Positions 1,676-17,039 of a DNA stretch of 64,000 nucleotides are shown piece by piece. A program made the translations under genes and the position numbers. The notes under the pieces are model-generated. The model was given only the letters and a program-made list of their open reading frames with translations. It was not told the origin of the DNA and made no database searches. Position 1 is the first letter of the stretch, and every line of letters starts with the position of its first letter. The DNA is from Gloeocapsopsis dulcis (GTDB taxonomy: Bacteria > Cyanobacteriota > Cyanobacteriia > Cyanobacteriales > Chroococcidiopsidaceae). The stretch covers positions 1,597,501-1,661,500 of the forward strand of contig NZ_CP119968.1 in the NCBI RefSeq assembly GCF_032163395.1, in the 5' to 3' direction.

Positions 1676-3079
1676 TCAGTTACGGTTGAGATTGTTGTCA
1701 AGAGCGATCGCTTTGCTCACTACATCGCGGTAGAGGTATGAGTGCGTAAAAGAAATACCTTTCAATAGCTGACTCAACAGATGCTGTTTAGGTACGTTTA
1801 TACTTTGCCAATCATCTTGTAAAATGCCGCCTGTATCATCACTGTTGGGATTCCAACTCCAGTAGGTAAAGCTCAAATGATGCTTCTGAATGTAATTGAC
1901 AAATTGCTGCTGCCAAATACCCTCTTTGGAGATCTTATCTACATAACGACCGCCAAATTCTCCAACTAAAATAGGCGCTAGATTTTGACTAGCAATATAG
2001 TTAAACCCAATTTCCCAACGTTTATAGAGATTGTAGGGAAAAGTTCGCTCAGCAAACCAAGGCTGATTGTAGACTCCAGGACCATATTCGTGTGGGGAAT
2101 AGACCAATTTATTAGGGCGAGATAAACGTACTGGATAACGCCTAACGCCTTCAAGATTACCTCCTTGCCAATGTCCTGATAATCTTTGCCCTGGAACATT
2201 ATTTTCTACGCCTTCCACAACAATTAACCAATGAGGATTTACTGCAAGAATCGCGTTTCCGGCTCGTTCTGCAGCAAGTCGCCAATCGGTTGCTATATCG
2301 CCAGTTCCCCAACTCGCACGCCCGTGAGGTTCATTTTTTAAATCTGCTCCAATCACATTGTCTTGATTTTGGTAACGAATCGCTAACATCCGCCACGTAT
2401 CAATCCAGTCTTGTTCTGTAAATCCATCTCCGTACCACAATTCAGGAATGCGTTGGTCATTTAATCGATGACTATCCAATACAATAAGCAAGCCTTGACG
2501 TTGAGCCTCTTGAATGATGTAGTCCATGACTTCTAAGGGAGTTTTCCCCTGTAGTTCTTGATTTGCACCAAGTTTATAGTCAATTCCACTGACTTTTGGA
2601 GATCTTAGTGATTGTACTGAGTAAGGTAGCCGAATCGTGTTATATCCCAAACTTTTAATTTGTGCTAGCATCTCCTGATAATCCCGACGCCATAAACCAT
2701 GAGGAGCGTGTAACCCTGTTTCTATACCAAACCAGTTAACCCCTCTGAGCAAAACATGATTTCCTCTAGCATCAATAATTTTTGACCCTTGAGTAGATAA
2801 GGGAAGTTGAATTATTGTACTGGCATAGGTTGTTGTGTTTATTCCTTCCAGTAGCCAAGGCGTCACCAATACAGTTGTCACTGCTAACACAAATAAACAC
2901 ATCTGTAAAATCGAAATCTTGGTTAGTCTTTGAGAACGCTTTCTCTTGGGTAAAAACGGCAATGTTTTCTGTGTTTGGCAAAAATAAGTGCTTAGAAGTA
3001 GTAGTTGAACTAACTTTCTCAGTATAAGTACTACTACATGAGTAATATGCGTGTTATAGAATAAAAAAAAAGTAACCAT
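1676..3079 (-). CDS. Membrane-anchored or secreted GH5 cellulase (endoglucanase)
   Basis: This is a glycoside hydrolase family 5 protein, most similar in pattern to endo-beta-1,4-glucanases. Visible GH5 landmarks are RGVNWFGIET (112-121), NTIRLPYS, LDSHR (201-205), the acid/base in LKNEPHG (Glu250), HEYGPG (330-335), and the nucleophile in LVGEFGG (Glu374). A basic stretch (KRKRSQR) and a hydrophobic segment at residues 61-78 form a signal peptide or anchor. No start has a good ribosome site; the first ATG (3079) gives a 60-residue extension before ATG 2902, and a TTG lies between, so the start is uncertain. It points away from the cellulose synthase series that begins 2.6 kb away, and likely trims or releases cellulose; that link is inferred from position. 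Confidence 0.88.
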   Translation of the reverse strand: MVTFFLFYNTHITHVVVLILRKLVQLLLLSTYFCQTQKTLPFLPKRKRSQRLTKISILQMCLFVLAVTTVLVTPWLLEGINTTTYASTIIQLPLSTQGSKIIDARGNHVLLRGVNWFGIETGLHAPHGLWRRDYQEMLAQIKSLGYNTIRLPYSVQSLRSPKVSGIDYKLGANQELQGKTPLEVMDYIIQEAQRQGLLIVLDSHRLNDQRIPELWYGDGFTEQDWIDTWRMLAIRYQNQDNVIGADLKNEPHGRASWGTGDIATDWRLAAERAGNAILAVNPHWLIVVEGVENNVPGQRLSGHWQGGNLEGVRRYPVRLSRPNKLVYSPHEYGPGVYNQPWFAERTFPYNLYKRWEIGFNYIASQNLAPILVGEFGGRYVDKISKEGIWQQQFVNYIQKHHLSFTYWSWNPNSDDTGGILQDDWQSINVPKQHLLSQLLKGISFTHSYLYRDVVSKAIALDNNLNRN

Positions 3080-3611: not shown

Positions 3612-4388
3612 ATGACTACTTCTATCTTCAAAAAATTTGTTTTACCACCTGTACTTCTTTCTACAGGAATCTTTGCAACATTAACTTTACCTTTGGCTTT
3701 ACTTGGCTCTAAGTCTGTAGCAATTCAGCTACAAGAAGAACCAGTTTTTCATGGCAAACTAAGAGATGTTGCTACTCCTTATCTTGGCTTAGCAAGCTTA
3801 CTCAGTTTGGGAACAGGAGTTGCTAGTGTCACAGTTGCAGGATGGCAACAATCTTCTCGTAAATCAGCGCAAGTAGAGCAGCAGCTATCTGGTTTGCAAA
3901 AAAGTTTGCAAGAAAAAGAAGAACAATTAGAACAACTTAAACTTTCTGAATCTCGTTTAGCAACTGTTGGATTAAATTCATTCTTAGAAGGTGAAGTATC
4001 TCAAATATCTAATACAGCTTCAGAAACTACTACAACAGCAATACAGCCTGTTGTTATTACGACACCTGTACAAGCTGTTGAGCCTTTAATTGTAATCGCC
4101 CACAAAGCAGAGCCAAGTTTAACAGTTCAAGCAGCTATTGCACAATTTCCTTTAGCGCAAAACTATCTTGCGTATACACAAGCTATTCCTACTCAAAATC
4201 AGCAAGATTCGAGAGATTCTCAGCCAGAATCTGCGCCAGATATGCCTTCAACAGAAGAACTACAAGATCAGTTACAACAAATTATGGCTCAGATGGAGAA
4301 TTTACACAAAGCATTACAAATAAATACAATAGTAAAGTCAGAGCAAGAAGTATCAGCTAGTGCGTCGATGCTTGCCTCTCATTTCTAA
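3612..4388 (+). CDS. Unknown envelope protein: two hydrophobic segments plus coiled coil
   Basis: I do not recognise a named family. The 258-residue product has a hydrophobic N-terminal segment (about 10-31, with PVLLSTGIFATLTLPLALLG), a second one at about 56-74 (YLGLASLLSLGTGVASVTVAG), and then a charged heptad-like stretch (about 82-115: QVEQQLSGLQKSLQEKEEQ). After that comes a Thr/Ser/Gln-rich part, and a second short coiled-coil-like stretch near the C-terminus (TEELQDQLQQIMAQMENLHKAL). The layout suggests an inner-membrane protein whose coiled coil lies in the periplasm or cytoplasm. It sits between a cellulase and the cellulose-export genes, so a part in envelope or polysaccharide assembly is possible but unproven. 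Confidence 0.75.
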   Translation: MTTSIFKKFVLPPVLLSTGIFATLTLPLALLGSKSVAIQLQEEPVFHGKLRDVATPYLGLASLLSLGTGVASVTVAGWQQSSRKSAQVEQQLSGLQKSLQEKEEQLEQLKLSESRLATVGLNSFLEGEVSQISNTASETTTTAIQPVVITTPVQAVEPLIVIAHKAEPSLTVQAAIAQFPLAQNYLAYTQAIPTQNQQDSRDSQPESAPDMPSTEELQDQLQQIMAQMENLHKALQINTIVKSEQEVSASASMLASHF

Positions 4389-4578: not shown

Positions 4579-5283
4579 TTAACGTAAGAGCTCAGCCATA
4601 GAAAGTGGAGCATTGGTTTGGTTTGTCTTAATTGGTTTTGGACGAATCGCAGTCGTAGTAGAAGCATCCAAATTAACTTCTGAGCGATTTCCCCACCCAC
4701 CATTGATTTCTTCTGGTAAAGTTTTAGGAGGAGTCGTTTTTCCAGAAGCTACGGCAATAGGTAATGTTTGACTAGCTTGTACATACTCTTCACCCTCAGC
4801 ACTGAAGCGAACTAGTCTTCCTCGTAATTCTGGAGTTTGTTGCTGTTCAGTTGGTAACTGAGCTGAAGGTTCGTAAGTAGCAATAAAAGTGACAGATGTT
4901 GCCGGTTGTAGCGAGTTTTGCAGTGCTGCTTCTGTCTGCCAAGCTTCTTGAAAACGTCCATCTGTAGCAACGTGCCAAAAATTCACTGTAGTTTGCCATT
5001 TTCCGGCCGATACTGGCACAATTTGCCGCGCCAAGATTGAGTAAGTCTTAGGTTGAGAAATCAGCGATCGCTCAGGTGCTGGATTTAGGTAACGTAACGC
5101 TGTGACGGCAATTCGACTATCATCAGGTAAATTCGTACTGCCTGCAATATTGTAGACTCCTGGACGACTTGCCGCTTTGATCTCGTTAATGTTGAGTTCT
5201 ATGCTTTGTTGGGGTGGCGGCGAACAGCTCATACACAGCAATGATAGTAAACTACAAGCCGTCACAGTCTGAGGCAATTTCAT
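4579..5283 (-). CDS. Unknown predicted lipoprotein or exported protein
   Basis: I do not recognise the family. From the ATG at 5283 the product is 234 residues and starts with a short basic end, a hydrophobic run and a cysteine (MKLPQTVTACSLLSLLCMSC), which resembles a lipoprotein signal although the residues before the Cys are not a canonical lipobox. The mature part has beta-rich stretches (PGVYNIAGSTNLPDDSRIAV, then WQTTVNFWHVATDGRFQEAW) and a Pro/Thr-rich tail. The frame can be extended 20 codons upstream to 5343, but that part looks unlike a signal peptide. It is convergent with the coiled-coil gene at 3612 and lies upstream of the cellulose-export series on the opposite strand. Confidence 0.75.
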   Translation of the reverse strand: MKLPQTVTACSLLSLLCMSCSPPPQQSIELNINEIKAASRPGVYNIAGSTNLPDDSRIAVTALRYLNPAPERSLISQPKTYSILARQIVPVSAGKWQTTVNFWHVATDGRFQEAWQTEAALQNSLQPATSVTFIATYEPSAQLPTEQQQTPELRGRLVRFSAEGEEYVQASQTLPIAVASGKTTPPKTLPEEINGGWGNRSEVNLDASTTTAIRPKPIKTNQTNAPLSMAELLR

Positions 5284-5698
5284 CTTTTGTAGAACAACTT
5301 GATATAAATGGGTAAGTATAGGGCGATCGCAATAAATAAGCATTAAATTTTAAGTATTTTAGTTATAAAGTTGTAAAACAGCACAAAAATCATTAGACAC
5401 CAGTAGGCAAAAGACTTGTCCTTAAAATTCACAAAGCTACTGCTCCAGGATAGTCTTGCTTCTTGAGTTCAACAAGAGATCTTTACTAAGAATTCTTAGA
5501 AAATTTAACTGCATCAAGCCTGTACTTTTATTTACATTTTTTAATCTGCTCATTCTGCAGAATTTACGGTGTTTGCGGCAAGTTAAAACCTTTTACACGA
5601 GAATATTCACCTGCTAGATCTCGTCGATCGGAATAAGGTTTGCTAAAGTGGCGACAGTTTGCCTATGAAGAAATAATCAGCCAAGCAACCAGGGTGTG
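5284..5698. other. Divergent intergenic region before the cellulose-export genes
   Basis: About 415 bases separate the divergent lipoprotein gene from the barrel gene. A weak promoter candidate reads TTGCTA (5640-5645), an 18-base spacer, then TATGAA (5664-5669), about 30 bases before the barrel start. One HIP1 site lies near 5322 at the lipoprotein end. I saw no terminator or riboswitch-like structure. Confidence 0.4.
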
Positions 5699-7888
5699 AT
5701 GAGCCAAACCGTACCTGATTGTCCTATATGCCCATATTTGAATCAATTCAAGCCAGTAAGCTTACTTGGCATGAGTGCGATCGCTGTTTGCCTGCTTGAA
5801 GTTGGTGCTATCCAATCTGCTCAAGCCAATTCTATAGAACACAGTAAACACGTTGCATCTCAATCGCTGAGAGCGCAACTTCCGAGCTTGCCAAATCAAA
5901 ATACTGCTTTACCAAATTTTAATAATATTCAAAGTCCGCAAGTAAATCCTGGAACACCTGCCAACTACAATCAGTATTTGGCAGTTCCTGGTGCTATTCC
6001 ATATGGAGGTTCTCCTCCGCCATTAGTAGCTCCTGTGAGAACATGGCAAGAAGAACTTACACAGAGAGGCAATTACCCAAATCCAGGGATGGCATCACCT
6101 TACCTGCCTCCGGTGGCAACACCACAACCTAACACGTTTGGGACTGGCGCTGCACCTGGGGTTATGGTTCCTTACGGTGTTGTATACCCCTATGTGCCCC
6201 AAGTTCCAGCTAATATACTTTATCCTGGAGCGATCGCACCTTACCCTTATGGTGCAGTTGGACAACCGCCGCCTCCCTACGTCCAAACACCAGTCATGCT
6301 ACTGCCAGTTCCGGCAAGCCCTGGAATTCCTCAACCAAATTCCACAAATGGCAATATGCTACCACCAGCACCAGGAAACAATGTCAATGGGATGATGCCT
6401 TATGCTATGCCAGGGCAACAACCTTACTTAGCACAACCTAATGCACTTGGCATGATGATGGTTCCTTATGCTATGCCAGGTCAACAGCCTTACTTAACAC
6501 AACCTAATGCGATCGGTGGCAATGCTGTACCCTTAGCACCAGGGAATATGATTCCTTATGCTATGCCAGGACAACAGCCTTACTTACCACCAATGCCACA
6601 ACCTAATGTGGGTGGTATGGGTATGATGTACAATCAAGGCGGTGTAACATCATATGCTCCAGTTGTCAACCCCAATGCAGCTATTGGACAACAAGCATTC
6701 CCAGCACCTGGTAATACCTTCAATCCTAACGGCGTACCGTATGCTCCTGTTGGATCTTACTTAGCACCAGCCACAACACAATTACCTCCCCCACTTAATA
6801 CAACACCACCTACCGCGCCCAATCCGAATTTAACTCCAGTACCTCCAACTCCTGTTCCTAACCAAAGTACGATCCAAACACCTACGTTGGATAGTCAACC
6901 TGTAAATAGTTCTGCGTTGCAATTACAAGGTGTCTATTCCTACCAAGGAGATGAGTCTTCAGCACGAGCACGAGTAGGTGCAGTGTATCCTCTCACACCT
7001 CGAATTTTAGTAGGTGCAACAGTCGATTTAACTGATGGCACTGCTTTTGCTGATTCTCGGACTCAGGGATTGAGTCTCAATGAATTCTATTTAGCAACTT
7101 CGTTAGAAAACGTGCCGAACTTGCGGTTTGTGATTGGTCAACTTGATTTAACTTCATACTTTGACCGTAACAGCTTTGCTAAAGATGGAGCATCGCAGTT
7201 TTTTAATCCTGTGTTTCAGACAAATCCAGCTTTGGTAAGTACTGGTGTTAACTCGCGCCCTGGTGCTTTAGTAAATTGGACTGTAACCGACAACATTGAA
7301 GCTAAAGCTGCGATATTTTCCTCTTCGCGGGCAATTGGAGACTTTGCACTCGATGGATTTGCCACAGAAGTAGGAATTCGCTATGGCAATGCGATCATTC
7401 GCGGAACTTATGCCACAGATCGCGATGCTGGAACTCAAGATGGCTTCCAAGAGGCTTTTCAAGTCGCCAGAAGTGATAGTGAAACTGGAATTTTGCGTTC
7501 GGATCGCGAGGAATCATACGGTGTCAACGCAGAAGTTTATATTCCTAATCTTAAAATGGGGCTATTTGGTCGCTATGGTCGCTATGAAAATCGCGATTTA
7601 GAACTAGGGGGAGATACGTACAGTTTAGGTGTGAGCTTTTTAGATGTGTTTTCACCCGATGATAGACTTGGTTTAGCTTATGGTAGAACTTTGTCTAATG
7701 ATAGATTGCGGCGGCAAGCAGGGAATGATAGACCTGATGTCTTAGAGTTGTATTATGATTTCCGCTTTTTATCTAATTTGCGATTGGGTTTTACGTTTCA
7801 AGAGCGTAACGACTTTTCCGAAACAATTTTCGGATTTCGGCTTAAAACCGAGTTTAACGTGACTCCAATCGAGAGTATTATCCGATGA
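5699..7888 (+). CDS. Outer-membrane beta-barrel protein with long Pro-rich N-terminal region (candidate cellulose export pore)
   Basis: The product has a signal-like N-terminus ending near QSAQAN (about residue 44). It then has a ~350-residue low-complexity region rich in Pro, Tyr, Asn and Gln with three copies of PYAMPGQQPYL. From about residue 402 to the end, a ~330-residue domain of alternating polar/apolar strands looks like an outer-membrane barrel (LQLQGVYSYQGDESSARARV, NLRLGFTFQERNDFSETIFG). About 330 residues would fit a barrel the size of the BcsC C-terminal domain (16 strands). The stop overlaps the next start (ATGA), coupling it to the TPR protein. I infer that it is the pore half of a split BcsC; the family could also be an unrelated porin. 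GTG 5696 is an alternative start; AGGG at 5691 serves either. Confidence 0.8.
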   Translation: MSQTVPDCPICPYLNQFKPVSLLGMSAIAVCLLEVGAIQSAQANSIEHSKHVASQSLRAQLPSLPNQNTALPNFNNIQSPQVNPGTPANYNQYLAVPGAIPYGGSPPPLVAPVRTWQEELTQRGNYPNPGMASPYLPPVATPQPNTFGTGAAPGVMVPYGVVYPYVPQVPANILYPGAIAPYPYGAVGQPPPPYVQTPVMLLPVPASPGIPQPNSTNGNMLPPAPGNNVNGMMPYAMPGQQPYLAQPNALGMMMVPYAMPGQQPYLTQPNAIGGNAVPLAPGNMIPYAMPGQQPYLPPMPQPNVGGMGMMYNQGGVTSYAPVVNPNAAIGQQAFPAPGNTFNPNGVPYAPVGSYLAPATTQLPPPLNTTPPTAPNPNLTPVPPTPVPNQSTIQTPTLDSQPVNSSALQLQGVYSYQGDESSARARVGAVYPLTPRILVGATVDLTDGTAFADSRTQGLSLNEFYLATSLENVPNLRFVIGQLDLTSYFDRNSFAKDGASQFFNPVFQTNPALVSTGVNSRPGALVNWTVTDNIEAKAAIFSSSRAIGDFALDGFATEVGIRYGNAIIRGTYATDRDAGTQDGFQEAFQVARSDSETGILRSDREESYGVNAEVYIPNLKMGLFGRYGRYENRDLELGGDTYSLGVSFLDVFSPDDRLGLAYGRTLSNDRLRRQAGNDRPDVLELYYDFRFLSNLRLGFTFQERNDFSETIFGFRLKTEFNVTPIESIIR
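6398..6586 (+). repeat. Intragenic peptide repeat, three copies of PYAMPGQQPYL
   Basis: Three 33-base units at 6398-6430, 6464-6496 and 6554-6586 each encode PYAMPGQQPYL inside the Pro-rich region of the barrel gene (residues about 235-296). Copies differ only at wobble positions, so they reflect recent duplication or selection on the peptide. Confidence 0.85.
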
Positions 7889-10215
7889 GTCAACTGCAAA
7901 AGATCGTGAAAAAAACGGAAACTGGCAAAAGGCAAATTTCCTACTTAATTCCTTTTGCATTAATAGTGGGATTAGTTGGAACTCCGGTGCTAGAGGTTGT
8001 CATGGTTCCTGTGGCTCAAGCACAAACACTGCCAACAGAAGTACGTCGAGGTTATACGCTTTTAGATCAGGGATTGGTTAAAGATGCGATCGCTGCTTTT
8101 CAACAAGCCGTTCGCCGCTATCCGCAGTCTATTCCCGCCAAACTCGGTTTAGCAATTGCCTACAGGCGACAGGGAGAAATTTCTGAGGCGTGGGATATTT
8201 ACCAACAAGTCTTGGCACAAGAACCCAACAATCAACTAGCCCTCAAAAGCGTAGGTGTCCTCGGCGGTTTTCGCCCTGAGTGGCAAGCAAGTGGCATAGA
8301 AGCACTAACAACATTACTCAGTCTTAATCCGAATGACACCGCAGCCCGTGCCCAACGTGCATTACTCTATGGCTATCAAGGACGTTTTGCGGAAGCTTTA
8401 GCAGACTATCAGACCGTTTTAGCAAATAATCCATCTCCAGAAATCTTACTCGGTGCAGCAGAAACTTACACTAATAGCGGTAACTATCGACAAGGATTAG
8501 AGTTATTTAATCGCTACCGTGCAACAGGACAGTCAATCTCTGGCTACGCAGCGATCGCCTATGCCCGAGCTTTGCGGCAAACTGGTAATGCAGCAGCGGC
8601 AATACAAGTACTCGAACCTCAGGTACAAGCTGCCCAAATAGACGATCGTGCAATTCAAGCACGTGCCGAGTTATCTTTAGCCTATTTAGCAAATCAGCAA
8701 TTTACTGAAGCCCTAGCCATTTTAGATCCTTTACAAGGTAGAGTAGATGCCCTCTTACCTTTAGCGCGATCGCTCAATGAAATTCGCTTGCGAGCTAATG
8801 TTGCTGGACTTGCTGAACGAGTCGCAAATCTCTACACTCAAGCATTAGCTCAAGCAGTGACTCCCGATCCGCAACTACTACGCGAGGCGGCTGATGTTTT
8901 TAGCGGTTTACCCCAAGGACAACAAACCGCATTACAGTTGTATCGTCAGTTGGCAACTAGTCAACCAAACGATCCCAGCATTCAAGTACAGCTTTTAGCC
9001 CTCGAACATCAGCTAGGATTAATTTCTCCAGCCGATCTTAAGGGACGACTGTATCAAGTTCTACAAACCTTGCCTACAGAGCCGACTCAACAACAGCAGT
9101 TAGCGCAAGCTTTGGCACAAATTGAACCTCCAGGACTAGAATTTCTGCCTGTTTATCAGAATTTACTACTAGCTGGTGTTAATCAACCGTTTCTTAACTT
9201 CCGCATAGCGCAGATGTTGGTGCAAAGCAACGAGCTAGAAGGTGCAAAACGTGCTTTGGTGGCTTACACAGCGACTCCAGCAGGAGCAGCAGATCTCGCA
9301 CCACAACTACTTGCAGCAGAAATCGAACGACGAGAAGGAAACCTGACGGCTGCACAAGCACGCTATCAAGCATTGATTGCAGCTAATGTTCAGGATGGTG
9401 ATGTTCTTAATGCTGCATTGCAAGGACTTGCAGGAATTTACTTAAGTCAAAATCAACCAGACAACGCTCTTGCACTGTACGATCAGCTTTTAGCGCGGAA
9501 TCCTCAAGATGCAAATGTCCAATTAGGACGTACTAGTATCGCTTATCAAGCAAACAGAATCTCAGAAGCTCAAGCAGAGGCAGTACTCAATAGTTGGCTG
9601 CAAAGTCAACCTACGACTAATGCACCACCCGAGTTATTTAGTTTAGTTGCTGCATTACCTGCAAGTCCTCAGCGGGAAAATTTGTATAATGCCCTTTTGG
9701 CGCTTGATCCAAATAATATCTCTGTACAAACACGCTCTCTTCAATTAATTGCATCGCGAGATCCAGCACTAGCACGCGCGCGAGTTGCTCAAATCGTCGC
9801 GAGTAATCCAAATAATATTGGTGTTTATTTCTTGCAGGGACAGTTAGCACAGGCAATTGGTGATTTAAGTCTTGCCGATCGCGCTTATCAAACGATTTTA
9901 ACTGCACAACCTTACAATGCAGATGCTTTGTCTGCTTTGGGTGGTATTCGGTTTCAGCAGCGACGCTTTAACTCTGCCGAACAGTTATATTCTCAAGTTT
10001 TGGCAGTAAATCCCAATGATTTAGCTATCCGGCGTACGCTAGCCAGCTTGAGTGCAGCGCAAGATAAACCTTTAACTGCACTTGAACAACTTGAGCAGTT
10101 ACAAGTACAACAATCCAATGGACTGTCAGATAGCGATTTATTGCGTCAAAGACAACAATTACAAGAAAATTTTCTGCGACGACGAGGCTTTCAACCTTCT
10201 TGGGAGCGCTACTAA
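7885..10215 (+). CDS. Periplasmic TPR protein, BcsC-like scaffold without a barrel
   Basis: The 776-residue product has a signal peptide (hydrophobic run about 20-40, cleavage near PVAQAQ) and then almost solid tetratricopeptide-type helical repeats. Examples are RRGYTLLDQGLVKDAIAAFQ (about 53-72), AKLGLAIAYRRQGEISEAW, and near the C-terminus SALGGIRFQQRRFNSAEQLY. In proteobacterial BcsC, periplasmic TPR repeats are followed by a C-terminal barrel; here the protein ends right after the repeats, with no barrel. The start ATG overlaps the stop of the barrel gene (ATGA), so the two are translationally coupled. I infer that it guides the glucan from BcsB to the barrel. Alternative: a general TPR scaffold for another exopolysaccharide. 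Confidence 0.85.
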   Translation: MSQLQKIVKKTETGKRQISYLIPFALIVGLVGTPVLEVVMVPVAQAQTLPTEVRRGYTLLDQGLVKDAIAAFQQAVRRYPQSIPAKLGLAIAYRRQGEISEAWDIYQQVLAQEPNNQLALKSVGVLGGFRPEWQASGIEALTTLLSLNPNDTAARAQRALLYGYQGRFAEALADYQTVLANNPSPEILLGAAETYTNSGNYRQGLELFNRYRATGQSISGYAAIAYARALRQTGNAAAAIQVLEPQVQAAQIDDRAIQARAELSLAYLANQQFTEALAILDPLQGRVDALLPLARSLNEIRLRANVAGLAERVANLYTQALAQAVTPDPQLLREAADVFSGLPQGQQTALQLYRQLATSQPNDPSIQVQLLALEHQLGLISPADLKGRLYQVLQTLPTEPTQQQQLAQALAQIEPPGLEFLPVYQNLLLAGVNQPFLNFRIAQMLVQSNELEGAKRALVAYTATPAGAADLAPQLLAAEIERREGNLTAAQARYQALIAANVQDGDVLNAALQGLAGIYLSQNQPDNALALYDQLLARNPQDANVQLGRTSIAYQANRISEAQAEAVLNSWLQSQPTTNAPPELFSLVAALPASPQRENLYNALLALDPNNISVQTRSLQLIASRDPALARARVAQIVASNPNNIGVYFLQGQLAQAIGDLSLADRAYQTILTAQPYNADALSALGGIRFQQRRFNSAEQLYSQVLAVNPNDLAIRRTLASLSAAQDKPLTALEQLEQLQVQQSNGLSDSDLLRQRQQLQENFLRRRGFQPSWERY

Positions 10216-10610
10216 TAGTAGGGTTCACAGGGTGCTAGCGCAGACCTTCGTGTCTTAATTACGAATTAATATAATTCATTGATTTTTTAACTAATCCTAC
10301 CACCGCACAATTACTGAGATTACGTTTCATGCATAAGAAACTATCACAAAACTCTCAGTGGATTTGCGCTTGGTCATTGCTCAATAGTAGAGCTAGATTT
10401 CATTTATATGTTTATAGACAAAACTCCAAAACTTGTTTAGAAATTACAAGTTCTAAATTTGTTTGTATTTCTCAAAGGAGGACAATTTTGCATTTTTATT
10501 ATTGAACAATTTATTGATTAAGCATCATTTTTATTACAGATTAGTATCTTACACAAAATCCAGTTTAAATTCAAATTTTTGTATTTGTATAACCACAGGT
10601 AATCAGCAAG
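10216..10610 (+). other. Gap inside the cellulose series
   Basis: This 395-base AT-rich gap splits the series into a barrel-TPR pair and a GH8-BcsB-BcsA group. It contains a strong ribosome site with a tiny reading frame (10474-10505, listed separately). No clear terminator was found. A second promoter here is likely but not identified. Confidence 0.5.
10474..10505 (+). promoter_or_regulatory. Strong Shine-Dalgarno with 5-codon mini-ORF (possible leader peptide)
   Basis: AAAGGAGG (10474-10481) is followed after a 6-base spacer by TTG CAT TTT TAT TAT TGA (10488-10505), which would encode Met-His-Phe-Tyr-Tyr. It is the best ribosome site in this gap, yet it leads only to this mini-frame, about 105 bases before the GH8 gene. 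It could be a leader peptide or chance. Confidence 0.25.
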
Positions 10611-11897
10611 ATGCAGCAACTAGCTCAAGGTAAAACTCGTAAATATCAAAATACAAACTTTTTACCTTTAAGTCCTTTTGCTGTCACGATCGCTGTACTC
10701 GGTTTAAGTGGTTGTTTATCAAGTTCATCTCTAGGGCAAGCGAATGCACCGCCTCATAACCTAGCAGTTGCAACACAATCTCCTTCGCCTGTTGCGATAC
10801 CAACAACAGAAATCAACTTAGAAGATTTGCTGCAAGAAAGCTGGAATGCGTATCGGCAAAGATTTATTCAAGCCGATGGGCGGGTAATTGATCGCGAAGA
10901 TAGCGATCGCTCAACCTCGGAAGCGCAAGCCTACGCAATGCTGCGGGCGGTGTTTGCGGACGATCCAACAACATTTGCCCGAACGCTGAATTGGAGTGAA
11001 AACAATCTCCAGCGGACAGTAGCAGGTAGTACGGATCAGTTGTGGGCATGGGAATGGGGTCGTGATATCCAAGGAAATTGGGAAATTCGCGATCGCAATT
11101 TTGCGAGTGATGCTGACATTGATGCAATTACTGCACTTATTTTTGCGTCACGCCGTTGGCAACGTCCAGAGTATCTTCAGTTAGCCCAAAGCAAACTAGA
11201 GGACTTATGGAACCTGTCTACAGTTGCCATACCAGATGGTAGGCGTTATCTCATCCCTGGTCCTAGAGAAGCCTTTCAAGTGCGATCGCACATTTTGATT
11301 CTCAATCCTTCTTATTTTGCACCATACGCCTTTCGGATTTTTGCCCAAGTCGATCCTACCCGCGATTGGCAATCGTTGGTAGATAGTAGTTACCAAGTGC
11401 TAGAGAATTCTGCAAAGCTATCAAAGGTTAATTTACCTAGTGACTGGGTAAGTTTAGATACGCAAACTGGTAACTATCAAGCATTACCAGCGTCACACTC
11501 CTTACGAACCGAGTACAGTTTCAACGCTTATCGAGTTTGGTGGCGTTTAGCTTGGGATGCAGTGTGGTTTCAAGAACCACAAGCAACTCAGTTTTTGCGA
11601 CATCACTTAAAGCATTTGCAACAAATGTGGTCTTCCACAAAACGAATTCCAGCACAAATTGATTTGCAAGGGAACCCGTTAGTCAACTACGAGGCGACAT
11701 CACAGTATGCCATGCTGTTTGCTGCCTTTCGCTTAATTGAGCCTGCAATTGCTACTCAAATTTTGCAACAAAAACTCTTACCCCAGTACCGCAGTGGAAT
11801 TTGGGAGCAAGATTCAGCTTACTACACTCAAAACCTTGTGGGATTGGGGTTATTTCCACCCACTGAGTTAACACAACTTTTACATCCTACTAACTAG
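10611..11897 (+). CDS. bcsZ: GH8 endoglucanase lipoprotein (BcsZ-like)
   Basis: This is a glycoside hydrolase family 8 cellulase, the family of BcsZ, which accompanies cellulose synthases and edits nascent cellulose. Landmarks are the catalytic acid in STSEAQAYAM (Glu104), LWAWEWGRD, the ASDADIDA motif (165-172) that carries the conserved Asp, and EYSFNAYRVWWRLAWD, matching the YDAxRxPWR-type block of GH8. The N-terminus has a hydrophobic run ending LSGC (Cys35), a good lipobox, so it is probably membrane-anchored in the periplasm, whereas many BcsZ proteins are simply secreted. It lies 24 bases before bcsB and is co-directional, supporting one transcription unit. Confidence 0.9.
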   Translation: MQQLAQGKTRKYQNTNFLPLSPFAVTIAVLGLSGCLSSSSLGQANAPPHNLAVATQSPSPVAIPTTEINLEDLLQESWNAYRQRFIQADGRVIDREDSDRSTSEAQAYAMLRAVFADDPTTFARTLNWSENNLQRTVAGSTDQLWAWEWGRDIQGNWEIRDRNFASDADIDAITALIFASRRWQRPEYLQLAQSKLEDLWNLSTVAIPDGRRYLIPGPREAFQVRSHILILNPSYFAPYAFRIFAQVDPTRDWQSLVDSSYQVLENSAKLSKVNLPSDWVSLDTQTGNYQALPASHSLRTEYSFNAYRVWWRLAWDAVWFQEPQATQFLRHHLKHLQQMWSSTKRIPAQIDLQGNPLVNYEATSQYAMLFAAFRLIEPAIATQILQQKLLPQYRSGIWEQDSAYYTQNLVGLGLFPPTELTQLLHPTN

Positions 11898-11921: not shown

Positions 11922-14474
11922 ATGCATAGCTTTCGTCGCGATCGACCTACTCACTCAAAGACTAAAACAAAGTCTCAACTATATAGCCTCCTATCGCCAT
12001 ATCTTTGGCTAATGGTATTAGGCTGCACTGCAGCAGTTCTTGCTTCCACAACAACTTCAATTCAAGCTCAAAGTGAAAGTAAATTGCGCCAAGAGGAACA
12101 GCAATTAATTCAAGAGTATGCGCTGCCTAAAGCACCCTCAAGACCGCCAGTTTATCGACCGCAGCGGGTAAGTCCTGCGCCTGCAAAATCGGCACCACAG
12201 CGATTGCAAAAGCCCGCGCCTCAAGCACCAAGCAAGCCGCCAGCAACTTCTTCGCGACCAGCACCAGCCCGTACTCAATCTGCTACGGCTACAACTCCTC
12301 GTCCGCGTCCAGCAGCAAGCCCTAAGCCTACTATAGTGGCTGCTAATGCTGTACCTCCGAGTCAATATGTTATGGAGTTTAATCGCAGTCCTGTTGTTGG
12401 TAATCGCTTTCGTTTACAAGGCATTTATTCTGAGGGCAGGCTTGGGTTTACGCGCCCGCGTGGTTGGCAAGTGCAATCAGTGAAGGCGTTAATTCGCTTT
12501 CAACATTCACCAGCATTGTTTGCCAATCGCTCTAATTTAACACTACGAGTGAATGGCACAAGTGTTGGTAGCGTTCCTCTCAATCGCAAGCAGTCGCAGA
12601 TCGGGAGTGTGCTGTTTGATATTCCACCAAATTTGATTCAGAACTTCAACGAACTGACAGTGGTGGCGCAGCAGCATAATTCGGCAACTTGTAGCGAAGC
12701 TGACCAAACGCTGTGGACGGAGGTTCTACCAGATTCTAAATTAATTTTTAACTATACTCCACAGCCAGTTCCGATTAACTTAAGTCGCTATCCTTATCCT
12801 TTCTTTGATGAATTGAGTTTGGAACCGAATCAGATTGCTTATTTGCTACCTCAACAAATGAGTGAAACTTGGCTAACGGCAGCGGCTCGTTTTCAGACAT
12901 CCTTGGGTAGGTTTGCCGAGTTTCGCCCGATTGATACAAGTTTAGTCAAAAGTATTGATGCAGTCGAGGGACAGCGGCTAGTTATTATTGGTACGCCGGA
13001 AGAACAACCAGCTTTAAGAAAACTCGATTTACCTTTTGCGATCGCTGGTAATCAAGTGCTTGACGGTAATCAAGATCCGCTGCCTGAAGATGTCGGTGTC
13101 TTGATGGTGACAACAACCAAAGATAGCGGTGTTCCTGTACTTGTTGCTACTGGAAATGGCGCTGATGGCGTGACAAAAGCAGTGCAAGCACTTGTGCAGT
13201 CGCAGAACCGTAAGATTGCCACAGGGCAGGGAATGATTGTTTCTCAATTAACTGAAGCACCTACACCAGGGCTGCGTCAATGGCCGCGTTATCTTCCTGA
13301 AAATAATTCGTTTGCCCTCAAAGACTTAGCAACTAGTAACAGCCAACCATTTCAAGATGTGACAGTACGCGGTTCTGCTGCACCACCAATTGAATTTGAT
13401 TTTCGGGCGTTACCAAACGATCGCTTTAACCGAGGTAATTCGATGTCCTTGCGTTATAGTTATGGTCCACAAGTTAATCCCAGAACTTCAGCAGTAGAAG
13501 TTTTACTTGATGGTGTGTTTATTGGTGGAGAGCGTTTGACCTCAGAACAAGGGGAAGTTAGAAAAACGCTCAATGTTAACTTACCAGAAAATTTGATTAC
13601 ACCTACTTCCAAAATTCAAGTGGCATTCCGCTTGCATTCTAAAGAGGCACCAGATAGGTGTGGTGGAATTGTTGCCGATCAACAACTTTCTGGTACAGTT
13701 CACGCGGATACTAGCTTTCATCTCAATCGCGAAACATCTGTACAAATTCCTGACTTGAAACTTTTGCAAGCTGGTTTTCCCTTTACTGCACCACAGGATC
13801 TTTCAAGTACTGCGATTGTTTTACCTGACACGCCTTCAGAAATCGATTTGCTGACTATGTTGGAGTTTAGCGAGCGTATGGGACGATTGAGTCAAGCTGA
13901 GTCGGTAGCCTTGAAGGTTTACACTGCGGAAAGTTTTCCGATCCAAGAACAGGGCAATTATCATTTGGTAGGAATTGGGACTCGCGAACAGTTTCCTTTT
14001 CCTGAAGTATTTCAAGCAGGTAGCTTCTTCCTCAGTGATGTCTTTTCTCGTGCTTGGGGCGGCAGTACAGTGCAAGCGTTACCTGACGAAGACGGGGTGA
14101 TTAAGGAAATTATTTCGCCTTGGAATCGCGATCGCGTTGTTCTGGCGCTGAGTGCTCAAACTAACAATGGTTTAGAACGAGTCCGTCAAATTCTCGATAA
14201 AGATCCTTGGTTTTTCCAACTCCAAAAAGATACTGTACTGATTTCCAGTAATCAGCAAGATCCTGCGGCTTACGATCCTGAAGGTTATGAACTGAAGTTT
14301 TTTCAAAGTTCTCCACAGCGGCGGATTGAAAATACAAGTTTGTTAAGTAAAGCATCGCGCTTGCTGCAAGAACATTGGTACTTATTGCCCTTGGGGATTT
14401 TAGGTATTGCTGTTGTACTTTATGGCATTACGCAAGCGTATCTGAAGCGGATTACTGTGGAGGATAAGAAGTAG
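11922..14474 (+). CDS. bcsB: Cellulose synthase periplasmic subunit BcsB
   Basis: The 850-residue product matches BcsB, the periplasmic, membrane-anchored partner that guides the glucan chain emerging from BcsA. It has an N-terminal signal segment (about 28-50), a Pro/Ala/Lys-rich linker (about 65-140), then paired carbohydrate-binding-like and flavodoxin-like regions (FNRSPVVGNRFRLQGIY, LTLRVNGTSVGSVPL, NELTVVAQQHNSATC; a second set from ~480 with EFDFRALPNDRFNRGN and RLHSKEAPDRCGG). It ends in a C-terminal membrane helix (HWYLLPLGILGIAVVLYGIT) and a basic tail, as in BcsB, where this helix docks on BcsA. It ends 3 bases before bcsA. Confidence 0.93.
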   Translation: MHSFRRDRPTHSKTKTKSQLYSLLSPYLWLMVLGCTAAVLASTTTSIQAQSESKLRQEEQQLIQEYALPKAPSRPPVYRPQRVSPAPAKSAPQRLQKPAPQAPSKPPATSSRPAPARTQSATATTPRPRPAASPKPTIVAANAVPPSQYVMEFNRSPVVGNRFRLQGIYSEGRLGFTRPRGWQVQSVKALIRFQHSPALFANRSNLTLRVNGTSVGSVPLNRKQSQIGSVLFDIPPNLIQNFNELTVVAQQHNSATCSEADQTLWTEVLPDSKLIFNYTPQPVPINLSRYPYPFFDELSLEPNQIAYLLPQQMSETWLTAAARFQTSLGRFAEFRPIDTSLVKSIDAVEGQRLVIIGTPEEQPALRKLDLPFAIAGNQVLDGNQDPLPEDVGVLMVTTTKDSGVPVLVATGNGADGVTKAVQALVQSQNRKIATGQGMIVSQLTEAPTPGLRQWPRYLPENNSFALKDLATSNSQPFQDVTVRGSAAPPIEFDFRALPNDRFNRGNSMSLRYSYGPQVNPRTSAVEVLLDGVFIGGERLTSEQGEVRKTLNVNLPENLITPTSKIQVAFRLHSKEAPDRCGGIVADQQLSGTVHADTSFHLNRETSVQIPDLKLLQAGFPFTAPQDLSSTAIVLPDTPSEIDLLTMLEFSERMGRLSQAESVALKVYTAESFPIQEQGNYHLVGIGTREQFPFPEVFQAGSFFLSDVFSRAWGGSTVQALPDEDGVIKEIISPWNRDRVVLALSAQTNNGLERVRQILDKDPWFFQLQKDTVLISSNQQDPAAYDPEGYELKFFQSSPQRRIENTSLLSKASRLLQEHWYLLPLGILGIAVVLYGITQAYLKRITVEDKK

Positions 14475-14477
14475 AGT

Positions 14478-17039
14478 ATGGCTTTATTCGATTTAAAGCG
14501 GCAACGCCAAAAACTTTCATTGGCAAATTGGCTAGTTGAAGATCTGCCACAACGGTTTGATCGAGCATTGGAAAAACTAGAAATCCGCCATCTTAAGTGG
14601 CTTATCTTACCACTTTTGCTGTTTTCTGTACCACTAATCACGACACCATTAGAAGTTTGGCAGCAAGGTGTTGTTACAGTTATTTTGATTGCGATCGGTC
14701 AAATTATTGTTCGTGCCGAGCAAAATAACCCCTCAAAATCTCGTAGCGAGTACTTGCACTTGTTTATGGTGTGGCTAAGTCTAGTGACAACGCTACGCTA
14801 TCTTTACTATCGAACTTCTTATACGCTCAATTTTAATAACTGGATTAACGGTATCAGCTGTGTTTTACTTTATGGAGCTGAATTGTACGCAGTTTTGACG
14901 CTGGTTCTTGCTTATTTTCAAACACTTAAAATTAAAGATCGCCAACCAGTAGATCTCAAGACAATTCCTCAGCCACAGTGGTTCACCATTGATATCTATA
15001 TTCCTACCTATAACGAAAGCGTTGATATTGTTCGTAAAACTGCATTAGGTGCTTTAGCCACCGATTATCCAGCAGATAAAAAACGAGTATATATCCTAGA
15101 TGATGGTCGTAAATTTCCGGAACGTCGAGAAGAGTTACGCCAGATGTGCGATGAAATTGGCTGCACGCTACTCACAAGAGAAAATAACGATCATGCTAAG
15201 GCAGGAAATATTAACACCGCCTTTCGCCATACTCAAGGCGATCTAGTGCTTATCTTGGACTGCGATCACGTTCCGGCGCGAGATATTCTCCAGAAAACAA
15301 TTGGCTTTTTCTATAACCCTAAAGTTTCTTTGGTGCAGACACCCCACTGGTTTTACAACCCCGATCCGTTTGAACGGAACTTATTAACAGGGGGCAAAGT
15401 TCCAGTAGGTAATGAACTGTTTTACAAGGTATTGCAAAAGGGTAATGATTTTTGGAATGCTGCGTTTTTCTGCGGTTCAGCAGCGGTGATTCGTAAAGAA
15501 CACGTTATGCAAATTGGTGGGATTGCAGTAGAAACTGTAACCGAAGATTGTCACACATCCTTACGGTTGCATTCTTTGGGGTATGAGACAGTTTACTACG
15601 ACAAAATTATGGTTGCGGGCTTAGCACCAGAGAAGTTGGTAGCTTATGTTGGTCAACAAGTGCGGTGGGCGCGGGGAATGGCACAGATCTTGCGGCTGGA
15701 AAACCCGATGTTTAACCCGAAGTTGAAGTTGACGCTACCACAACGGATTTGTTACTTTTCGGCAACATCGCACTTTTTCTATGGTTTTCCGCGATTGATG
15801 TATGCGATCGCTCCTACACTATTTTTACTGTTTAGCATCAATCCCATTCGCGGCTTAGGATTAGAAACTCTCGCCTATGCTTTACCGCACATTCTTTTAG
15901 GTTTGAATACCAACCACCTGACTTACAAACACGTTCGCTTTTCTTTCTGGAATGAAATCTTTGAGTTCGTGATGTCTTACCAAGCAGGAATTGTCACGTT
16001 TTTAGCACTGATTAACCCTAAACTTGGTTCTTTTAACGTCACAGATAAAGGACAAACTGTTGATAAGCGCACTTTTGATTGGCAATCGATACGTCCATTA
16101 TTAATTGTCACTGCACTTGTTGTAACATCACTGCTTGCTGTTCCGTTCTGGTTATTACTTCGCCCTGAAGATAGTGAAGCTGTTTTGGTAAACGCGTTGT
16201 GGTGTGTTTTTAACTTGATCCTATTAGTAGCTGCTTGCCTTGTTGCTTTTGAACAACCACAGTTACGTTCTGCACACCGCCTACAGCGTCATCTAGGTGC
16301 AGTGATTTACAGTGCAGATCAAAGCGTTCCAGGAATTACAGTGAATATTTCGGAAACTGGGGCACTGATTGCGCTAGATTCATGGGCTAATTTACCGGAT
16401 GAAGTCGAGGTTGAAATTATTGGCGATTACGGGGCGCGAGCATTTCTTAATGGAAAAATTGTTCGCTGGACGCCAGTTGATGACACTCAAATTCATGTTG
16501 TTGTTGATTTTATTAATCCTACCCGCGCTCAGTTGGATAATTTAGTGTTGGTTATCTATTCTGATGTGAAAGAGTGGTACGGGCAAAAGCGGGAAATTGT
16601 CGATCGACCTTTCAATTCGTTTAAGTTTCTCGCAACAAGTCTCATCCGTTCCTTCCGTGATTTTAAACCAGAACGGAGTGTGCAAAAGGTTCGCAAACAA
16701 GTTCAAACGACAGCACAAATATACTGGGAAGGACAATTTTATACCGGAGAAGCAACTGAACTAGGAACTAGCAGTTTAAAACTTGAGTTAGATTACAATT
16801 CTGCATCTTCAGAAAAGCAACTCCAACAGCAGGATATAGAAAAGATGAGGCAACAGCAACCTTTAGTAGGCTTGCTCTTGGAGGGTGACAATTCTGCAAA
16901 TCGTTTTTTGGCTCAAATTACTCATGTAGAAATTTGTGGTAACAGCGATCGCTCATCTGTTGTCATTGAGTTAAGGTTTCCTGAACAGTTTAAACAAAAG
17001 CAAGCAGAGAAGATTAAGGAGTTGTTACAGACTTTGTAG
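14478..17039 (+). CDS. bcsA: Cellulose synthase catalytic subunit BcsA with PilZ domain
   Basis: This GT2 processive synthase polymerises UDP-glucose into beta-1,4-glucan and moves the chain across the inner membrane. N-terminal membrane helices (about 52-145) precede a catalytic domain with LDDGRKF (Asp208-209), LDCDH (Asp261, Asp263), TEDCH (Glu356-Asp357) and QQVRW (Gln393-Trp397), followed by more helices. A PilZ domain follows with RSAHR (from Arg597) and NISETG, the RxxxR and D/NxSxxG signature for cyclic di-GMP, so it is likely activated by that messenger. After PilZ there is an unusual ~160-residue extension (about 690-853), which contains a second PilZ-like strand pattern without the ligand residues. 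It lies 3 bases after bcsB. Confidence 0.96.
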   Translation: MALFDLKRQRQKLSLANWLVEDLPQRFDRALEKLEIRHLKWLILPLLLFSVPLITTPLEVWQQGVVTVILIAIGQIIVRAEQNNPSKSRSEYLHLFMVWLSLVTTLRYLYYRTSYTLNFNNWINGISCVLLYGAELYAVLTLVLAYFQTLKIKDRQPVDLKTIPQPQWFTIDIYIPTYNESVDIVRKTALGALATDYPADKKRVYILDDGRKFPERREELRQMCDEIGCTLLTRENNDHAKAGNINTAFRHTQGDLVLILDCDHVPARDILQKTIGFFYNPKVSLVQTPHWFYNPDPFERNLLTGGKVPVGNELFYKVLQKGNDFWNAAFFCGSAAVIRKEHVMQIGGIAVETVTEDCHTSLRLHSLGYETVYYDKIMVAGLAPEKLVAYVGQQVRWARGMAQILRLENPMFNPKLKLTLPQRICYFSATSHFFYGFPRLMYAIAPTLFLLFSINPIRGLGLETLAYALPHILLGLNTNHLTYKHVRFSFWNEIFEFVMSYQAGIVTFLALINPKLGSFNVTDKGQTVDKRTFDWQSIRPLLIVTALVVTSLLAVPFWLLLRPEDSEAVLVNALWCVFNLILLVAACLVAFEQPQLRSAHRLQRHLGAVIYSADQSVPGITVNISETGALIALDSWANLPDEVEVEIIGDYGARAFLNGKIVRWTPVDDTQIHVVVDFINPTRAQLDNLVLVIYSDVKEWYGQKREIVDRPFNSFKFLATSLIRSFRDFKPERSVQKVRKQVQTTAQIYWEGQFYTGEATELGTSSLKLELDYNSASSEKQLQQQDIEKMRQQQPLVGLLLEGDNSANRFLAQITHVEICGNSDRSSVVIELRFPEQFKQKQAEKIKELLQTL

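Follow-up and report, generated by a model that had tools for sequence, protein, structure and literature searches.

The window analyzed here is the whole 64,000-nucleotide stretch of Gloeocapsopsis dulcis DNA (contig NZ_CP119968.1, positions 1,597,501 to 1,661,500, forward strand). It carries a cellulose cluster in which genes for an outer-membrane barrel protein and a periplasmic TPR protein lie ahead of the GH8, BcsB and BcsA genes (Table 1). An earlier note on this DNA had placed the barrel gene first and the TPR gene second, joined by an ATGA overlap, with GH8, BcsB and BcsA downstream on the same strand; the ORF table, the junction sequence (...CCGATGAGT...) and the family matches bear this out. 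The order is also, as that note had it, opposite to that of BcsC, since coordinates and junction place the barrel first and in a gene of its own. In the ORF table, the barrel frame opens with GTG at 5696 and has an in-frame ATG at 5699.

Table 1. Features of the cellulose cluster, in window coordinates
Feature	Position	Strand	Remarks
GH5 cellulase	1676..3079	-	frequent cluster neighbour
Two-TM-helix protein with coiled-coil-like tail	3612..4388	+	read from sequence; nearly confined to cluster genomes
Divergent lipoprotein-like gene	4579..5343	-	in the sample only in cluster genomes
OprB-type outer-membrane barrel protein, 730 aa	5696..7888	+	signal peptide, Pro-rich region, C-terminal barrel of 16 predicted strands
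Pro-rich low-complexity region	5831..6892 (limits approximate)	+	follows signal peptide, precedes barrel; PYAMPGQQPYL repeated three times; not conserved
Barrel domain, 331 aa	6893..7885	+	16 predicted strands; loop after strand 5 most conserved
Periplasmic TPR solenoid protein, 776 aa	7885..10215	+	signal peptide; ~21 helix pairs (model); C-terminal tail RRGFQPxWE
GH8 endoglucanase (BcsZ-like)	10611..11897	+	lipobox-like start LSGC, read from sequence
BcsB	11922..14474	+	Pfam; NCBIfam under cut-off
BcsA cellulose synthase	14478..17039	+	catalytic motifs and PilZ c-di-GMP motifs

The TPR and GH8 genes are separated by 395 bases. Between positions 5340 and 11950, a promoter scan returns 5 sites vs 12.3 in shuffled sequence, and a terminator scan 1 site vs 6.0. 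At the upstream edge of the window, the GH5 gene is preceded by an ORF (8-1576) that looks by eye like the C-terminal end of rpoC2 and has relatives in 12 of the 80 named loci described below.

Synthase genes and candidate accessory parts

Pfam supports the GH8, BcsB and BcsA identities, and NCBIfam gives the same family names. BcsB scores 344 bits in Pfam (cut-off 21). BcsA reaches 696.6 bits against TIGR03030 CelA, just below the cut-off of 699.1, and the NCBIfam equivalog models for BcsB and BcsZ score well below their cut-offs. BcsA contains the catalytic motifs DDG, DCD, TED and QQVRW, and RSAHR/NISETG, which correspond to the RxxxR and NxSxxG motifs of PilZ. Catalytic and PilZ motifs together, with BcsB encoded next door, are what is expected of a BcsA-BcsB cellulose synthase; these motifs therefore make a working, c-di-GMP-responsive synthase plausible.

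Two further genes are candidate parts of the system. The protein encoded at 4579-5343 belongs to a lipoprotein-like family with an invariant Cys. Searches of Pfam and NCBIfam at E≤1 find nothing for it; single members of the family give only stray Pfam matches (0.04-0.09), and the family profile finds 0 PDB sequences at E≤1. At E≤1e-6, the profile has 19 matches, in exactly the 16 cluster genomes among the 386 sampled (see below), one copy in G011 lying away from its clusters. This distribution suggests that the family is probably an unnamed component.

The two-helix membrane protein (3612-4388) is also a probable additional part. Its family occurs in the same 16 genomes and in G286, where the copy is decayed, with three stops in frame. 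In G286 (L051 9629-10181 and L179 about 5176-5484), short bcsB and GH8 remnants lie ~0.95 Mb from the decayed gene. This genome looks as if it had lost the whole system.

Family and fold of the barrel and TPR proteins

The barrel protein belongs to the OprB family. The Pfam model PF04966 scores 42.7 bits over the whole protein and 46.4 bits for the domain (cut-off 22.9), the barrel domain matches at E = 4.7e-12, and 10 of the 16 family barrel domains match at E≤0.1. An AlphaFold2 model from a 16-sequence alignment has 16 strands (mean pLDDT 80, pTM 0.78). Foldseek places OprB of Pseudomonas putida first (E 5e-13), and VIA-align ranks 4gey best (Z 26.1, rmsd 3.1, 299 aligned; next entry 22.9) at a sequence identity of 16%. 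The predicted model is a 16-strand porin fold whose nearest structure is OprB. At the sequence level, the barrel profile finds 0 PDB matches at E≤1, and tblastn of the barrel domain against plasmids returns 6 records, the Allocoleopsis cluster described below and five weak porin matches.

BcsC-type and alginate-type barrels were sought in the same way. A Pfam search finds no BCSC_C (PF05420) match in the window protein or in family members, while E. coli BcsC, the positive control, matches BCSC_C at 4e-120. Aligning the barrel profile to E. coli BcsC with hhalign gives a probability of 0.1% over 11 columns. No BCSC_C match above the cut-off of 23.5 occurs in any of the 16 cluster genomes; one match of 22.7 bits in G338 lies far from the cluster. 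Alginate_exp has no match in the barrel at E≤1. BcsC, PgaA and AlgE are not among the 50 VIA-align matches listed, which is no evidence against a relation.

The most conserved stretch of the barrel is an almost invariant loop of 35 residues after strand 5 (DLTSYFDRNSFAKD...FQTNPAL). Because of its position, we infer that it is the porin constriction loop. A carbohydrate porin of Candidatus Manganitrophus matches residues 53-114 of the barrel query at 42%, a segment that includes part of this loop. The earlier note had set a sugar-uptake porin against its own proposal of export, and this objection is half borne out: OprB is a sugar-uptake family, and the loop stands at the place of a constriction loop.

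The long Pro-rich region described earlier ahead of the barrel is real, with 20% Pro over 409 residues and ~2% charged residues. Neither its sequence nor its length is conserved (median 265, maximum 862 residues in 95 sequences). At least two TFNQ-type motifs occur in 48 of these 95 barrel sequences, a count that includes three whose frame, as read, shows no Pro-rich region (L165 and two lying at the end of a locus) and omits L096, which has no anchor motif. The region occupies the position of the SLH domain in the tested OprB paralogues of the same genome. The source genome gives 13 OprB match rows at ~12 loci, so about 11 besides the barrel gene, which ties with one other locus as the weakest OprB match in the genome (40.1 bits each). 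Eight paralogue loci were considered, and the five on the plus strand were read, the three on the minus strand being left aside; all five carry an N-terminal SLH domain. The barrel protein has no SLH match at E≤1.

By its sequence, the TPR protein begins with an ordinary signal peptide whose last residues are AQAQ. AlphaFold2 models it as a solenoid made entirely of helices (mean pLDDT 85); counted by hand, ~21 helix pairs follow the signal peptide. Foldseek with this model returns mostly eukaryotic TPR or solenoid proteins, with query TM-scores of 0.15-0.35 among the 50 matches listed; at such low scores, the model says only "helical repeat solenoid". The match to BcsC is likewise generic (63 columns, probability 60%). 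Conservation is fairly even beyond the signal peptide, and the C-terminal tail RRGFQPxWE is strongly conserved. The idea that only the two ends of the protein are conserved is unsupported, save for this tail.

E. coli BcsC is predicted to have 19 TPRs; the first of them binds BcsB, and a cello-oligosaccharide seems to be bound close to the last (PMC11379886). The ~21 helix pairs of the modeled TPR protein are near this number. Since the BcsC chain would continue into its barrel at the corresponding point, the RRGFQPxWE tail may, by analogy, dock on the separate barrel.

Distribution of the pair across the phylum

A BcsB search of 386 sampled genomes of the phylum finds matches in 22. Neighborhoods of up to 20 kb were taken around the BcsB matches other than that of the window (n=25). 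The order barrel, TPR, BcsB recurs in 15 of these 25, and GH8 precedes BcsB in 12 of the 15. In the other three (L031, L042, L050), the pair is present with no GH8 gene between TPR and bcsB. The remaining 10 neighborhoods comprise three cut by a contig end, six that are not complete cellulose clusters, and one without a barrel (L041), where TPR-bcsB-bcsA stand with no adjacent barrel; the genome of L041 has another cluster with one.

The pair clearly co-occurs with bcsAB, the association on which the earlier note had let its proposal depend. A barrel-domain profile (A1), built from 16 sequences, finds 19 barrels scoring 444.7-615.3 bits, spread over 16 of the 386 genomes, the next best anywhere scoring 40.1, and the TPR profile has 20 matches at E≤1e-40 in the identical 16 genomes. 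Up to five barrel, two TPR, six lipoprotein-family and six 3612-4388-family candidates were scored per genome. Profiles A1-A4 match their own members by construction; the informative results are the absences elsewhere and the non-members found. The barrels of G005, G118 and G360:C427 lie outside the profile and were found all the same, each with an adjoining TPR gene.

The 16 pair-bearing genomes hold 20 full-length BcsB matches. Outside these 16, full-length BcsB occurs only in G343, a member of the phylum with no closer relationship. It has two adjacent full-length BcsB-type genes (L035 8695-13436), with no BcsA match within the 20 kb taken. Six of the 22 BcsB genomes are not counted as cellulose clusters: G343, G286 with its short remnant (53.4 bits), and G085, G177, G241 and G332 with weak matches of up to 42.2 bits. 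The weak matches (L052-L055) are frames of 664-681 residues, and a 769-residue BcsA-like ORF lies near them in L052 and L055. These four loci are possibly a different glucan system.

Pair-bearing genomes are patchily distributed (14 of 142 genera), a pattern consistent with the genes being gained and lost together. Across 66 loci, and without a neutral control, the pairwise distances of barrel, TPR, BcsB, BcsA, GH8 and lipoprotein show correlations of 0.87-0.95. Barrel and BcsA are about equally slow, with mean distances of 0.26 vs 0.27.

A contig scan gave 194 relatives, of which the best 80 were analyzed, all with cyanobacterial names. Several of these loci are probably genomes of the 386 sample, so the two surveys are not independent. 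The barrel gene is followed by the TPR gene in 75 of the 80; in 58 loci the two share bases at their junction, four in 50 loci, one in 7 and 35 in 1. The same gene order as in the window, which the earlier note proposed to look for, is thus found elsewhere in cyanobacteria, in these best named loci as around BcsB. Three of the five exceptions end at a contig end with or soon after the barrel gene. L100, a MAG locus, lacks the TPR gene and has a BcsA broken in two. In L132 (Tolypothrix campylonemoides), a 453-residue ORF (10156-11517) splits the barrel and TPR genes; that it is of mobile origin is a guess.

Of the 69 named loci in which the contig does not end ahead of bcsB, 68 have a bcsB match downstream. 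The exception, L127, lacks bcsBA beside the pair; a complete cluster, L155, is found on that record as well. The cellulose genes of Allocoleopsis franciscana PCC 7113 (L180) are on the 93-kb plasmid pMIC7113.02. There, the barrel-TPR pair keeps its four-base overlap and stands on the opposite strand to BcsB, ~5 kb apart; the gene beside BcsB, annotated as a family 2 glycosyltransferase, is taken to be BcsA. The pair is also intact though parted from bcsBA in L127 and at G360:C427. Since the pair is kept through rearrangement, barrel-TPR is the tightest bond in the cluster, and the link to bcsAB itself survives rearrangement.

Proposed cellulose export and known systems

The BcsA and BcsB families make glucan and push it into the periplasm, and the BcsA-BcsB proteins encoded here would do the same. 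The TPR solenoid would catch the chain at BcsB and guide it toward the outer membrane, presumably touching both BcsB and the barrel. The OprB-type barrel would be the pore through which the chain leaves the cell, and GH8 would have the polymer-trimming role of BcsZ. Probable extra parts are the lipoprotein, whose role is wholly inferred, and the two-helix membrane protein.

The link of the barrel-TPR pair to cellulose is strong. From gene order, co-occurrence and fold predictions, we put the probability that the barrel and TPR protein replace BcsC as the cyanobacterial cellulose exporter at roughly three in four. Several findings count against export: the OprB family is one of sugar uptake, with a near-invariant loop at the constriction-loop place; L041 lacks an adjacent barrel; the TPR match is generic; NCBIfam scores fall under their cut-offs; and the 395-base gap between TPR and GH8 makes a single transcript less certain.

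The same family and fold would suit a barrel that imports cello-oligosaccharides released by GH8 and GH5, with the polymer leaving elsewhere (e.g. through a TolC-like channel) and the TPR protein serving as a periplasmic scaffold only. Both glycosidases are in the cluster, the loop region is common to a carbohydrate porin outside cyanobacteria, and an XcsAB-TolC model is described for other cyanobacteria (PMC12430437). Uptake is weakened, however, by the three of 15 clusters with no GH8 between TPR and bcsB and by the many other OprB loci of the genome. Moreover, the tight coupling is of the barrel with the TPR gene, no other barrel was identified in the cluster, and the sugar ABC permease genes adjoining the window cluster recur in 1 of 25 neighborhoods, from the window's own genus, most of the 80 named loci stopping too close to bcsA to show this stretch. 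Import is on balance unlikely.

The Pro-rich region bears on a second alternative, in which the pair is a structural module that anchors the outer membrane, with either peptidoglycan or the Bcs complex as its partner, and positions surface cellulose without conducting it. The length of this region, its place where SLH sits in the five tested paralogues and the lack of an SLH match in the barrel protein would agree with anchoring, but it is the supposed anchor that varies, while the barrel is as slow-evolving as BcsA, and we regard anchoring as a poor prospect. It is hardly credible that an ancestral BcsC underwent true fission and a reshuffling of its gene order: the parts list is the same as that of BcsC, the TPR match is generic and the BcsC of an acidobacterium is reported as two gene fragments and regarded as a pseudogene (PMC9693552), yet the barrel matches OprB and not BCSC_C, and open-frame lengths reveal no fusion in any of the 19 barrels or 20 TPR genes.

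The earlier description, a BcsC function split into two genes, is supported in part. The cellulose link and the export-type parts stand; descent from BcsC does not, and is rejected on the hhalign probability of 0.1% and the absence of a BCSC_C match. The OprB match of the barrel, with none to BCSC_C, points to recruitment of a porin and not to the breaking up of BcsC. The name "split BcsC" should be dropped; the data fit a replacement of BcsC by a TPR protein and an OprB-type porin. It is an even call whether cyanobacteria turned an OprB uptake porin into a polymer exporter that, with the TPR protein, the lipoprotein and the two-helix protein, forms a separate, co-inherited exporter class.

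Cellulose passage through the cyanobacterial outer membrane is called poorly defined in a 2025 review (PMC12430437). A 2015 survey of the phylum reports BcsC_C absent from the strains analyzed and BcsB in few, and did not take BcsC, BcsB or BcsZ any further (PMC4594306). BcsC loss is reported in a subset of alphaproteobacteria (PMC7112194). In the open-access literature searched, as far as its texts were available, no description of the barrel-TPR pair was found. If true, a separate class of synthase-dependent exporter would fill the missing export step for BcsB-type cyanobacterial cellulose, and an uptake-type porin fold would have been reused for export. With a defined, co-inherited gene set, the question of cyanobacterial cellulose export becomes directly testable, and the engineering of cellulose-secreting phototrophs gains a compact list of parts.

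Among known systems, E. coli BcsC (Bcs type II) is alike in accompanying BcsA, BcsB and BcsZ and in combining a TPR solenoid with a 16-strand barrel (PMC11379886). It differs in being one chain, TPR first, with a BCSC_C barrel, whereas here there are two genes, barrel first, and the barrel is OprB-type. AlgK-AlgE of the alginate system is a known precedent for a TPR protein and a barrel that are separate; AlgK is, however, a lipoprotein and shorter, with 9.5 TPR motifs in the P. fluorescens structure (PMC9734138). The window pair also departs from AlgE and AlgK in its lack of an Alginate_exp match (E≤1), in the plain signal peptide of its TPR protein and in the polymer.

OprB sugar porins (PDB 4gey, 4gf4) share the Pfam family over cut-off, the predicted fold and the 16 strands of the model; the Pro-rich N-terminal region, the fixed bcsAB link and an identity of 16% set the barrel protein apart from them, and the lack of SLH sets it apart from the SLH-OprB porins of cyanobacteria, as represented by the five paralogues tested. 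The XcsAB-TolC model of Thermosynechococcus and relatives likewise concerns cyanobacterial cellulose secretion. It uses an HlyD-like XcsB and a TolC-like channel, in operons typically without bcsB (PMC12430437), whereas BcsB is present in the cluster of the window.
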